Assembly: GCA_937129385.1 (NCBI GenBank)
Contig: CAKZNC010000019.1
Span: forward strand, 1 to 62,604
Source of the DNA: an uncultured Bacteroidota bacterium
Lineage (GTDB): Bacteria; Bacteroidota; Bacteroidia; Bacteroidales; GCA-2748055
Direction: 5' to 3'
DNA length: 62,604 nt
Positions within the stretch are counted from its first letter, which is position 1; each line of letters opens with the position of its first letter. Positions 38,142-43,700 of this stretch are shown in pieces. A program made the position numbers and the translations under genes. The notes beneath the pieces were generated by a model, which was given only the letters and a program-made list of their open reading frames with translations, was not told the origin of the DNA and ran no database searches.

Positions 38142-38159
38142 TCAAAAATCTGATTGGTT

Positions 38160-40397
38160 ATGGCATCTAGAAGAGACTTTCTCAGGGTCTCTGCTTTTGG
38201 TATAGGCGGCATGTTCGTTGCGGCCGCAGGCTTGAAACTCCAGGCTTCCATTAGTGACCTGAATGAGCGCTCCGATAAACTGTATCTGAATCTCATCAAG
38301 ACTCCCACATATTGCGAAGTATGCTTCTGGAAGTGTGCTGGATGGGTCTACAAAACCGATGAGGGCGAGATCTGGAAAATCGTTGGCAACGAGATCGATC
38401 AGCACTGCAATGGCCGTTTCTGTCCGCGTGGAACAGGGGGAGTGGGGATGTATCATGATGAAGCCCGCCTGAAGACCCCATTGATCAGAACAGGTGAAAG
38501 AGGGGAACAGAAATTCAGAAAGGCATCATGGGAAGAGGCGCTGGATATGGTGGCCAAAAACCTGCAGAACATTGCCGACAAACATGGCCCGGAAACAATC
38601 GCGCTGCTTTCGCATGGGTCAGGGGGTAAGTATTTTACCAACCTGATCAAGGCACTTGGATCAGACAGCTCTGCAGCACCCTCGTTCTCCCAGTGCAAAG
38701 GTCCCAGGGAAATCGCCTTTTTAAATACATTTGGTGAAGAGGTGCTTTCACCGGAAAGAACTGATATCCGTGATACGCGTTGCATGGTACTCATTGGTGC
38801 TCACATCGGTGAGAATATGCATAACGGCCAGGTCCAGGAGATGTCAGATGCCATCGACAAGGGCGCATCGATCATTACCGTAGATCCCCGTTTTTCAGTG
38901 GTTGCCGGAAAATCGAAATTCTGGTTACCTGTCAAACCCGCCACAGACATCGCCCTGCTTCTTGCATGGATTCATGTGATCATTTATGAAAACCAATATG
39001 ATGCCGGGTATGTGGAGAAATACACATACGGTTTTGACTACCTGAAACAGCATGTAAAAAATTTCACCCCTGAGTGGGCCTATGGTATAACGACCATCAA
39101 ACCCGGCACAATACGTGAGACGGCCAGGGAAATGGCCAATGCATCACCTGCTGTGATCATTCATCCCGGGCGACATGTTACCTGGTATGGGGATGACACG
39201 CAAAGATTGCGTGCAGTTGCGATACTCAATGCGCTACTTGGTTCATGGGGAAGACGCGGTGGATTCTATCAGCCCGAATCCATGCCTGTTCCGTCGGCAC
39301 CGCACCCTCCCTATCCAAAACCCCGGAAAACATGGCGGGATGCACTCAATGGTAAATTCAACATGACCGAGCTTCCGCTGGCATCGGAGTTTGTGGAGGC
39401 AAGCCTGCCGGATAGTGACCGGGACCTGCAATACAAGGCATGGATCGTCAACGGTACAAACCTGATCTTTACCCTTCCCGATCAGCAAAAAACGATCGAT
39501 GCACTTAAAAACCTGGAATTTGTTGCAGTGGTGGATACCATGCCCATGGAAATCACTGCCTGGGCCGATGTCATCCTGCCGGAATGTACCTACCTGGAGA
39601 GGTATGACTCCATCAGGAACAGCCCGCATCGTCTCCCTTCCATCGCAGTGCGTATACCTGCTGTTGATCCGAAATATGATACCCGCTCTGCCTGGTGGAT
39701 GGCGAGGGAGATCGGATTACGGATGGGACTTGACGACTATTTTCCCTTCGAGACTCAGGAAGAGGAACTCGACTGGCAATTGAAGGAACTGGGAACTTCC
39801 CTTGAGGAGATGACAAGGAAAGGCGTCAAGAATTTTGAAAGGAGCTGGGACGACCTCTATATTGCTAAGGGTCAGGAGATGGAATTCTTCACAAATACAG
39901 GAAAGATAGAACTCTATTCCACATCAATGGCCGCAGCAGGCTTTGATCCGTTGCCGGTCTATACAAAACACGAACTGCCGCCTGCAGGCTTCTACAGGCT
40001 AAACTACGGTAGGGCTCCGATGCATACATTCAGCCGCACTTCCAATAATCCAAACCTGACCGATCTGATGGCTGAGAATACCCTTTGGGTAAACCCGAAG
40101 ATTTCAAAGATCGAGGGGATTGAGAATGACCAATATGTATGGCTGGAAAATTCAAAAGGTATCATCAGTACATTTCCCATCAAGGTCAGAGTTACCGAAA
40201 GAATTCGCTGGGATTCGGTGTACATGGTGCACGGATTCGGGCATCAGAACAAAATGCTGGAACGATGTTTTGGTAAAGGTGCGAGCGATACAGAGCTGAT
40301 GAGCATCGTTCATAAGGATCCTGTAATGGGAGGTACAGGTATGCGAGGAAATTTTGTACGTATTCACATTGAAAAACCACAGGAGGAATTGTCATGA
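38160..40397 (+). CDS. Mo-bisPGD oxidoreductase catalytic subunit (thiosulfate/polysulfide reductase PhsA/PsrA-like), Tat-exported
   Basis: Tat motif SRRDFLRV; 4Fe-4S motif CEVCFWKCAGW...CNGRFCPRG; candidate Mo-ligand Cys in FSQCKGPRE. Start reset to MASRRDF at 38160. Confidence 0.88.
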   Translation: MASRRDFLRVSAFGIGGMFVAAAGLKLQASISDLNERSDKLYLNLIKTPTYCEVCFWKCAGWVYKTDEGEIWKIVGNEIDQHCNGRFCPRGTGGVGMYHDEARLKTPLIRTGERGEQKFRKASWEEALDMVAKNLQNIADKHGPETIALLSHGSGGKYFTNLIKALGSDSSAAPSFSQCKGPREIAFLNTFGEEVLSPERTDIRDTRCMVLIGAHIGENMHNGQVQEMSDAIDKGASIITVDPRFSVVAGKSKFWLPVKPATDIALLLAWIHVIIYENQYDAGYVEKYTYGFDYLKQHVKNFTPEWAYGITTIKPGTIRETAREMANASPAVIIHPGRHVTWYGDDTQRLRAVAILNALLGSWGRRGGFYQPESMPVPSAPHPPYPKPRKTWRDALNGKFNMTELPLASEFVEASLPDSDRDLQYKAWIVNGTNLIFTLPDQQKTIDALKNLEFVAVVDTMPMEITAWADVILPECTYLERYDSIRNSPHRLPSIAVRIPAVDPKYDTRSAWWMAREIGLRMGLDDYFPFETQEEELDWQLKELGTSLEEMTRKGVKNFERSWDDLYIAKGQEMEFFTNTGKIELYSTSMAAAGFDPLPVYTKHELPPAGFYRLNYGRAPMHTFSRTSNNPNLTDLMAENTLWVNPKISKIEGIENDQYVWLENSKGIISTFPIKVRVTERIRWDSVYMVHGFGHQNKMLERCFGKGASDTELMSIVHKDPVMGGTGMRGNFVRIHIEKPQEELS

Positions 40398-40927
40398 GAT
40401 ATGCCATGGCGATCGACACGAAAAAATGTGTCGGATGCAGCGACTGCGTAGTCGCCTGCCAGACCGAAAATCATGTGCCCATTGGCTATTGCCGTGACTG
40501 GGTTGTTGAAGTGATGGATGGCACCTATCCCCAGCTTGAGATGGAGATCCGTTCGGAGAGGTGTAACCAGTGCGGCAACGCACCATGTGTGCGTTGTTGT
40601 CCCACCGGTGCCAGCCATTTTGAGGAGGGTGGACTCGTCCTGGTAACGGCCGATAAATGTATTGGTTGCGGGGCATGTATACAGTCATGCCCGTATGATG
40701 CAAGGTATTCGCATCCCGACGGACATGTTGACAAATGTACATTCTGTAACCACCGGGTGGAAGTGGGAGGAAAACCTGCCTGTGTTGAAGCCTGCCCGAC
40801 AAAATGCATGTATTTTGGCGACCTGGATGATCCTGGAAGCGATGTGTCTAAAGTGCTGAAAACCCGGAAATCAAAAACCCTCATCCCGGAAGCCGGAACT
40901 GAGCCTTACCTCTACTTTCTAATCTAA
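40394..40927 (+). CDS. 4Fe-4S ferredoxin-type electron transfer subunit (PhsB/PsrB-like)
   Basis: CVGCSDCVVACQTEN, CNQCGNAPCVRCCP, CIGCGACIQSCPYDAR, CTFCNHR...CVEACPT cluster motifs. Confidence 0.92.
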   Translation: MRYAMAIDTKKCVGCSDCVVACQTENHVPIGYCRDWVVEVMDGTYPQLEMEIRSERCNQCGNAPCVRCCPTGASHFEEGGLVLVTADKCIGCGACIQSCPYDARYSHPDGHVDKCTFCNHRVEVGGKPACVEACPTKCMYFGDLDDPGSDVSKVLKTRKSKTLIPEAGTEPYLYFLI

Positions 40928-40939
40928 AAAACACCCGCA

Positions 40940-41881
40940 ATGAGAGAAGAAATTATCATAAGTGGCCGGATGAATCCAAACATCGATCCGTACCTGCATA
41001 TCTGGCACTGGCAAATACCATTGTACCTCTTCCTGGGAGGTCTTGCTGCCGGAATCCTCTTCTTTTCTGCATACAATCATGTGACCGGAAAGGAAGAAAA
41101 ATACAGGGCTGCATCTTATATCTCCACCTTGATTGTTCCACTGCTCCTGGTATTCGGACTCTTCAGCCTGTTCCTCGACCTGAAACATAAAATGTATTTC
41201 TGGAGATTGTATACCACAATCAAACTGGAATCCCCGATGTCGTGGGGAGCTTGGGTGTTGATGCTGGTAACGCCGCTCTCCTTTATCCTGGCTGCGATCA
41301 ACCTGAAAAAGGTCTTCCCTGGATGGAAATGGAAATACCCGCTTATGCAAACGCTTGATGACTTCTTTGAGAATTACAGGAGGACCATTGCATGGATCCT
41401 GGTGGTCGCAGCACCGATCCTTGGAATATATACCGGTATCCTGTTCTCTGCATTCAACGCACGCCCCCTCTGGAATACTTCTATCCTTGGACCCCTCTTT
41501 CTTGTGTCGGGTTTGTCAACAGGAGCTGCAGTCAATATCCTGTTCTCTAAAGACCATGCAGAAAGACTGGCCTTCACCAGGATCGACCTGGTGCTGATCG
41601 GAATAGAATTGTTCCTGATCACACACATGTTCATGGGGTTCATGGCGAGCACACAGGTGCAGATCGACTCCGCAAAATTATTCCTGGGTGGACCTTATAC
41701 CGCACAATTCTGGGTGCTGGTGGTAATGCTCGGACTTGTGATCCCTGCATTCCTGGAGATCCTGGAACTAAAGAAATTTAAAATTCCGGCAATTGTTCCC
41801 GCCGGCCTGGTCCTGATGGGCGGATTGATCCTCAGGTTTATACTTACAAACGCCGGTCAAATGAGCAGATGGTTGTACTAA
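40940..41881 (+). CDS. NrfD/PsrC-family polytopic membrane anchor subunit
   Basis: WHWQIPLYLFLGGLAAGILFFSA N-terminal NrfD signature, multiple TM helices, operon position. Confidence 0.9.
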   Translation: MREEIIISGRMNPNIDPYLHIWHWQIPLYLFLGGLAAGILFFSAYNHVTGKEEKYRAASYISTLIVPLLLVFGLFSLFLDLKHKMYFWRLYTTIKLESPMSWGAWVLMLVTPLSFILAAINLKKVFPGWKWKYPLMQTLDDFFENYRRTIAWILVVAAPILGIYTGILFSAFNARPLWNTSILGPLFLVSGLSTGAAVNILFSKDHAERLAFTRIDLVLIGIELFLITHMFMGFMASTQVQIDSAKLFLGGPYTAQFWVLVVMLGLVIPAFLEILELKKFKIPAIVPAGLVLMGGLILRFILTNAGQMSRWLY

Positions 41882-41894
41882 AAAAATAATTGAT

Positions 41895-42434
41895 ATGTCA
41901 GAACAATCCATTCCTGAATTCAGGAAAACAAGTTACTTCAATCCCTACGTTGGCGGCGTCCTGCTTGGACTGGTGCTGCTGGCGGCCTTCTATATCTCCG
42001 GACGGGGACTTGGCGCAAGTGGGGCAGTGAAAAGTGCAGTTGTGGCTGGTGTGGAAACCATTGCACCGTCGCATGCCGAAAATACTAAATTCTATAGTGA
42101 TTATGCCGACGCGCATCCAAACGGACCCCTGAAATCATGGCTGGTATTCGAGATGCTGGGCGTTCTCATCGGTGGTTTTATCTCCGGAGCAATACATGGA
42201 AGACTGAAACTCCAGGTGGAGCATTCTCCAAAGATCACGTCCCGGAAAAGACTCATATTTGCCCTTGCCGGCGGGATCCTGTTTGGAATTGGATCCCAGC
42301 TGGGCAGAGGATGTACAAGTGGCTCTGCACTTTCGGGCATGGCAGTACTCAGTATGGGTGGATTCATATCGATGATCTTCATCTTCGGTACCGCCTATGC
42401 CCTGGCATATTTTGTAAGAAAATTATGGATTTAA
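41895..42434 (+). CDS. YeeE/YedE half-transporter (first half)
   Basis: RKRLIFALAGGILFGIGSQLGRGCTSGSALSGMAVLSMGGFISMIFIFGTAYALAYF: GCTSGxxLSG motif. Confidence 0.87.
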   Translation: MSEQSIPEFRKTSYFNPYVGGVLLGLVLLAAFYISGRGLGASGAVKSAVVAGVETIAPSHAENTKFYSDYADAHPNGPLKSWLVFEMLGVLIGGFISGAIHGRLKLQVEHSPKITSRKRLIFALAGGILFGIGSQLGRGCTSGSALSGMAVLSMGGFISMIFIFGTAYALAYFVRKLWI

Positions 42435-42447
42435 AAAGAACTGAAAA

Positions 42448-43044
42448 ATGGGACCACTAATAGTATATGAGAATATTACACAGAATACGAATCTGTTCTT
42501 TGCTTTCCTGATCGGAATCGGTTTCGGTTTCGTATTGGAGGCCAGCGGCTTCTCATCCAGCAGAAAACTCGCAGGACAGTTTTACGGGTATGATACCACG
42601 GTGATCAAGGTGTTCTTTACCGCTGCAATTACTGCAGGGATCGGTCTGCTTATATTCGGTCTGTTTGGCTGGATCGACCTGGACCTTATCTACATCAACC
42701 CGTACTATAAATGGTCCACCATCGTCGGTGGAATGATCATGGGTGCCGGCTTCATCCTGGGGGGATTCTGCCCCGGGACAAGCTTTACAGGCGTCGCAAT
42801 TGGTAAGATCGATGCAATGATTTTTGTTGGAGGACTTCTACTTGGTATCCTCATTTTTACTGAAGGATATCCCATCTTTGAAGGACTCTATATGGCTGCA
42901 TATAAAGGAACTCCAAGAGTAAGCTCCATGATGGGCATTTCAGACGGACTCTTTCTGCTTGGCCTCGTAATCGTTGCCTTTGGCATGTTTTATGTTGCAG
43001 AATGGGCGGAGAAAAAATTTCCATTGAAAGAAGGATCAAAATAA
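42448..43044 (+). CDS. YeeE/YedE half-transporter (second half)
   Basis: GFVLEASGFSSSRKLAGQFYGYDTTVIKVFFTA...GAGFILGGFCPGTSFTGVAIGKIDAMIFVGGLLLGILIF: GGFCPGTS motif. Confidence 0.87.
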   Translation: MGPLIVYENITQNTNLFFAFLIGIGFGFVLEASGFSSSRKLAGQFYGYDTTVIKVFFTAAITAGIGLLIFGLFGWIDLDLIYINPYYKWSTIVGGMIMGAGFILGGFCPGTSFTGVAIGKIDAMIFVGGLLLGILIFTEGYPIFEGLYMAAYKGTPRVSSMMGISDGLFLLGLVIVAFGMFYVAEWAEKKFPLKEGSK

Positions 43045-43055
43045 AACTCAACACA

Positions 43056-43700
43056 ATGAAAAACGTAAAGATCAAAAGTACAAGGGTATTGCTTGCCGTT
43101 ATCTATATCCCGGTTGCATTTGTCCTTGCTTTCGCACCGGTGAAAACCAACAAACCCAATGCGCTCTCTTCTGAAGAGTTGCTTGAAGAGGTGAACAGCA
43201 GCGTCCAGTTCATCAGTCCTGACGATGTGGCTGACAGAATCATCAAGCAGGATCCGTTTCTTCAGCTGATCGATGTGCGGACCCCGGAAGAGTTTGAGAA
43301 ATTCAGCCTTCCCGGTGCGATCAATATTCCTCTTGCCCAACTGCTTTCCGATGAATATGCCTATATCCTCAATCAGTCGGATTACATCAATGTCTACTAT
43401 TCAAACGGTACTGTCTTTGCCTCCCAGGCATGGTTGCTTACACGGATGAAAGGATATGAGAACAATTATGTGCTGATGGGCGGACTCAATTACTGGGCCG
43501 AGACGATCATGAATCCGGAAGCGCCTTCCTCAACCAGCCCTAACGAAGAAGTTGCGAAATATAATTTCAGGAAGGGAGCCAGCCAGGTTCTCGGCGGTGG
43601 TGCGACTGAAAATGATTCAGCTGCGACAAGCATCCTTGCAGCACCAAAACCGCCTATCAAGAAAAACACCCAGAGAAAAAGGGTACAGGGAGGTTGCTGA
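43056..43700 (+). CDS. Membrane-anchored/periplasmic rhodanese-fold protein lacking the active-site Cys, with C-terminal GGC
   Basis: N-terminal hydrophobic segment; LQLIDVRTPEEFEKFSLPGAINIPLAQL; active-site loop VYYSNGTVFASQA; C-terminus KKNTQRKRVQGGC. Start reset to 43056. Confidence 0.85.
   Translation: MKNVKIKSTRVLLAVIYIPVAFVLAFAPVKTNKPNALSSEELLEEVNSSVQFISPDDVADRIIKQDPFLQLIDVRTPEEFEKFSLPGAINIPLAQLLSDEYAYILNQSDYINVYYSNGTVFASQAWLLTRMKGYENNYVLMGGLNYWAETIMNPEAPSSTSPNEEVAKYNFRKGASQVLGGGATENDSAATSILAAPKPPIKKNTQRKRVQGGC

Follow-up and report, generated by a model that had tools for sequence, protein, structure and literature searches.

A pseudo-rhodanese with a conserved C-terminal cysteine arm and a fixed link to two-piece YeeE: a probable periplasmic sulfur carrier

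What a rhodanese-fold protein may do when its active-site loop has no cysteine and its only cysteine is the very last residue is the question raised by the gene at 43056-43700 of the window, i.e., the whole stretch of 62,604 nucleotides analysed here. The open reading frame (ORF; forward strand) encodes 214 amino acids and its sole cysteine, C214, is the final residue (...KRVQGGC before the stop; C-terminal sequence around it, KKNTQRKRVQGGC). An alternative in-frame ATG lies upstream at 43002, and the starts of relatives fall at about 43056. The product matches Pfam Rhodanese (PF00581) over residues 55-149 with 53.9 bits against a cut-off of 22.2 and gives weak NCBIfam matches to single-domain rhodaneses, and its structure model, in which the rhodanese domain is confident (mean pLDDT 86.6), retrieves ordinary rhodaneses in Foldseek (E to 5e-7), so that sequence and model both place it in the rhodanese fold. 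The active-site loop reads NVYYSNGTVFASQAW (residues 113-125, VYYSNGTVFASQA) with Tyr115 in the place of the catalytic Cys, and the product lacks the loop Cys in CxxGxR/S that defines a catalytic rhodanese or thiosulfate sulfurtransferase. The model also contains a helix at residues 9-26 and, at residues 181-214, a low-confidence, unstructured and Lys-rich tail of 34 residues that ends in GGC. All of this agrees with the original prediction, which had described a rhodanese fold without the active-site cysteine, a single cysteine ending a basic tail, and an N-terminal hydrophobic export or anchor segment. The parts of the protein are:

43056..43700, + strand: pseudo-rhodanese with terminal GGC, 214 aa (Pfam; 112 relatives)
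43080..43133, + strand: N-terminal hydrophobic helix, residues 9-26 (model; hydropathy 2.6)
43218..43502, + strand: rhodanese fold, residues 55-149 (PF00581; Foldseek)
43392..43430, + strand: former active-site loop, residues 113-125, Tyr for catalytic Cys (alignment column 115)
43596..43697, + strand: flexible Lys/Arg-rich arm ending in GGC, residues 181-214 (pLDDT mostly 50-70, below 50 at 183-194)
43689..43697, + strand: GGC terminus, residues 212-214 (C in 112/112, preceding G in 99%)

Relatives were collected from genomes by similarity to the whole 43056-43700 protein, duplicates were removed, and 112 distinct complete ORFs of at least 60 bits were used as the conservation set. Conservation of the terminal cysteine is near-absolute: it is the last or penultimate residue in every relative (112/112) and follows a Gly in 99% of them, the termini being GGC, GGCx or EGC and the penultimate-Cys variants GGCS, GGCE, GGCG and GGCA. 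The arm has a median length of 33 residues (range 23-49) and a highly variable sequence ahead of the Cys, and the last 12 residues have a median net charge of +4 (at least +3 in 94/112). The catalytic Cys is lost, column 115 holding Tyr in 79% of relatives and Cys in 2/112, with Cys in the adjacent next column in 3/112; 87/112 relatives have no further Cys in the aligned region. Loci L111 and L112 have a Cys in the catalytic loop position plus the terminal one. None of 13 other rhodanese-domain ORFs from the same loci has a terminal Cys, most of them having a visible loop Cys, and among 922 other ORFs of the same DNA two end in C and none in GC.

Because the tail is part of the search profile, the search could favour terminal-Cys matches, and a second set was chosen solely by similarity to the second YeeE half (YeeE-B). 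All 20 loci of this set contain an adjacent or fused rhodanese with Cys last or penultimate, and the majority of them were absent from the rhodanese-search results. The original prediction had proposed a comparison of homologues beside YeeE genes, and with nearly no exceptions these have lost the loop Cys and kept the terminal G-C. In L207 and L216, both from the YeeE-B-selected set, the YeeE-B or rhodanese frame is broken or split, apparently through decay or sequencing error, and yet GGC or EGC still closes the downstream frame. For the 43056-43700 terminus, both chance and sequencing error were rejected on the counts from the two sets (112/112 relatives; 20/20 YeeE-selected loci). Recoding of TGA, or selenocysteine, after the terminal Cys was also rejected, because both Cys codons (TGT in 65 and TGC in 47 of the 112 relatives) and all three stops (TAA 68, TGA 28, TAG 16) are used. 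Below 60 bits, eight more terminal-Cys ORFs were detected, seven of them tandem copies within the same clusters. Three tandem rhodanese genes, each ending in a Gly run and Cys, are present in L057 (5910-8604), L058 and L059; the third is about 380-400 aa long and also has internal Cys residues, with a lipoprotein-like start in L057. A GGC-stop pattern gave 50 raw matches in the window genome versus 30 in the reversed control; the 922 ORFs above served as the background in its place.

The family extends over much of Bacteroidota sensu lato, where it was detected at E 1e-10 in 54/393 genomes, and among the other genomes sampled it occurs in 7/198 of the phylum that contains Aminicenantes (Acidobacteriota in GTDB) and in 1/349 (locus L175) of the phylum that contains the gammaproteobacteria, Pseudomonadota. 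In a tree built with the tail removed, it is separate from the control rhodaneses with support of 99/73. We found no description of a terminal-Cys pseudo-rhodanese family in the openly accessible literature, and no dedicated database model, current models matching the rhodanese domain only. A search of plasmids for relatives of the 43056-43700 product returned no close one.

In the window, 43056-43700 is the last gene in the order psrA-psrB-psrC-yeeE half-yeeE half-rhodanese, in line with its earlier placement at the end of a Mo-oxidoreductase/YeeE-YedE operon. The upstream genes are:

38154..40397, + strand: PsrA/PhsA-like Mo oxidoreductase with a Tat-type leader, SRRDFL (Thermus 2vpw, 643 bits, E 5e-192)
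40394..40927, + strand: 4Fe-4S PsrB-like subunit (Fer4 and database-model matches)
40940..41881, + strand: NrfD/PsrC-like membrane subunit (PF03916, 149.7 bits)
41895..42434, + strand: YeeE/YedE half A, Cys motif GRGCTSG (PF04143, 81 bits)
42448..43044, + strand: YeeE/YedE half B, Cys motif GFCPGTS (PF04143, 48.6 bits)

The Mo, FeS and NrfD subunits together constitute a Psr/Phs-type CISM enzyme. Thermus 2vpw is the best solved relative of the Mo subunit, which scores 461 bits with the PhsA model, under the cut-off of 694 and too low to assign its substrate. The two PF04143 halves with their conserved Cys motifs form a two-piece YeeE/YedE; TsuA models match half A below cut-off, and the Cys motif of half B is invariant across aligned relatives. 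The window genome (99.7% complete) has a single YeeE pair, the one beside 43056-43700.

Linkage to YeeE is fixed across the family: in 101 of the 102 members with sufficient flank, a YeeE half lies within 2.6 kb or is fused to the rhodanese. Besides the psrABC, yeeE-A, yeeE-B, rhodanese arrangement of the window, a second setting comprises an octaheme cytochrome and a cytochrome b561-type protein followed by yeeE-A and a fused yeeE-B-rhodanese. Its octaheme cytochrome belongs to the tetrathionate reductase family (560 bits with TIGR04315; its solved relative is 1sp3). Assignments of the octaheme and b561 genes come from two loci; the others have genes of equal size in the corresponding position. 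In L150 (3034-7491), as in some 17 comparable loci among L130-L163, octaheme and b561-type genes, split YeeE and fused pseudo-rhodanese form one gene run. In a third setting, a secreted-looking two-domain rhodanese with an intact CHIG loop precedes yeeE-A, yeeE-B and a rhodanese ending in RMGC. This terminus, not GGC, is found in L157, L158 and L160, the intact-CHIG-loop rhodanese being upstream in L157 and L160, and a cysteine desulfurase-like gene lies downstream in L160 (identified) and in L158 (by position). The reductase is different or missing in these three loci and YeeE is kept. Split YeeE is therefore the constant partner, and the sulfur or redox enzyme (PsrABC, octaheme cytochrome or active rhodanese) is exchangeable. 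The sole YeeE-fused exception seen is L189 (661-2961), where YeeE-B and a pseudo-rhodanese are fused to more rhodanese domains, among them one whose loop is a canonical CRTG, and the terminal Cys arm is absent.

Residues 9-26 are predicted to form an N-in/C-out membrane anchor or uncleaved signal. Lys/Arg residues precede this helix in the unfused form, and the fusions preserve a transmembrane helix at the junction of YeeE-B with the rhodanese, from which the rhodanese domain should face the periplasm by the positive-inside rule. In the model of a fused YeeE-B-rhodanese, the YeeE half had poor confidence and the rhodanese half alone was used.

We consider it probable that the protein is a membrane-tethered periplasmic sulfane-sulfur carrier with a SoxY-like terminal arm that serves the outer mouth of the two-piece YeeE, because the loop is dead, the fold is kept, the sole Cys ends a basic arm and the link to a Cys-lined channel is fixed. 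This carrier reading is also supported by the change of redox partner while YeeE and arm persist, and by the model, which is a folded domain with a disordered arm. The rhodanese fold, no longer catalytic, would act as a docking body, and C214 on its flexible positive arm would accept sulfane sulfur in the form Cys-S-S(-) or Cys-S-SO3(-), the basic residues possibly drawing sulfur anions and lowering the thiol pKa. We infer such persulfide chemistry on the periplasmic side and hand-over to YeeE: the arm would shuttle sulfur between YeeE's outer mouth and a periplasmic sulfur enzyme, here the PsrABC-type reductase, with the terminal Cys as the first, outside thiol ahead of the channel's own cysteines. 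SoxYZ provides the working precedent: movement of sulfur from the SoxY Cys along the three SoxT cysteines is called conceivable in PMC11582611, whose authors also question direct Cys-to-Cys transfer. Earlier proposed as a swinging-arm carrier, the protein would keep this role in outline, with a conserved arm and a YeeE link; the Mo enzyme does not hold as its fixed partner, YeeE being constant instead. Several points count against a carrier. YeeE is reported in PMC11073785 to import free thiosulfate with no carrier on the periplasmic side, which means that the YeeE family does not strictly require one. No TusA-family protein, as cytoplasmic acceptor, was found in the 99.7% complete window genome, and it is not obvious why PsrABC-type enzymes, whose work is periplasmic, would need a channel.

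The arm might instead present sulfur from polysulfide or thiosulfate to the Mo or octaheme site, YeeE being merely co-regulated, as the PsrABC operon in the window and the OTR operon in other loci could suggest. Sud of Wolinella succinogenes, a periplasmic rhodanese-like partner and sulfur carrier for PsrABC, offers a precedent; it works through a loop Cys and is not known to be linked to YeeE. Such a feeder seems unlikely here, because the tie to YeeE, in many cases by fusion, is constant, whereas the reductase varies or is missing (L157, L158 and L160). The single Cys and close YeeE linkage would also suit a redox sensor or gate, in which a disulfide or persulfide between the terminal Cys and a YeeE Cys opens, closes or anchors the channel with no sulfur cargo, and Hyphomicrobium SoxT1B is linked to signalling (PMC11582611). 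However, a flexible arm of such median length with a Gly-Gly hinge is more carrier-like than a fixed gate, and the rhodanese domains that replace the tail in L189, including one that has the canonical Cys loop, suit sulfur transfer, which makes a gate more doubtful still. It is very improbable that the C-terminal Cys is a point of processing, lipidation or dimerisation without sulfur chemistry. Its terminal position and preceding basic residues would fit, but here it occurs in a single family next to genes of sulfur transport and sulfur redox chemistry, a GC ending is absent from all 922 other ORFs, an N-terminal membrane anchor is already present, and the GGCS, GGCE, GGCG and GGCA variants are unlike a processing signal.

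Among single-domain rhodaneses, PspE, GlpE and the YgaP domain share the fold of the pseudo-rhodanese, but the latter has a terminal Cys arm in place of a catalytic loop Cys and forms a separate branch. The original prediction had taken DsrC/TusE-type proteins as the parallel; the product has the rhodanese fold and no DsrC match, and SoxY is the closest working parallel for the arm. SoxY (of SoxYZ) is periplasmic, as predicted for the pseudo-rhodanese, and bears its sulfur-binding Cys in a Gly-rich extreme C-terminus, with the motif GGCGG; the pseudo-rhodanese likewise combines a flexible arm with a conserved end Cys. Unlike SoxY, the pseudo-rhodanese has the rhodanese fold (its sole Pfam match, with no SoxY matches in Pfam or NCBIfam), is membrane-tethered or channel-fused, has no SoxZ partner that we could see, and ends in GGC, GGCx or EGC. 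Some SoxT (YeeE-like) proteins are proposed as recipients of sulfur from SoxYZ (PMC11582611). YeeD/TsuB is likewise a dedicated single-Cys partner of YeeE/TsuA and can also be YeeE-fused, but it is TusA-like and on the cytoplasmic side, where its Cys has been called a 'fourth cysteine' (PMC11073785). PmpA/PmpB resemble the window halves as a two-piece YeeE with one key Cys per half in a passage of PMC11582611, which describes no rhodanese partner.

These results bear on the delivery of sulfur to the outer face of YeeE/SoxT-type transporters, for which PMC11582611 raises carrier hand-over and doubts direct Cys-to-Cys passage; with a one-Cys arm fused to the channel, hand-over is open to a single-point-mutation test. 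The terminal-Cys arm also offers a mark by which to annotate family members, which could be mislabelled as thiosulfate sulfurtransferases. Split YeeE and a dead rhodanese with a terminal-Cys arm may well represent a previously undescribed module, found in at least three phyla and pluggable onto unrelated periplasmic sulfur enzymes, in which the catalytic Cys has in effect been moved to the arm as a convergent equivalent of SoxY for YeeE-type transport.
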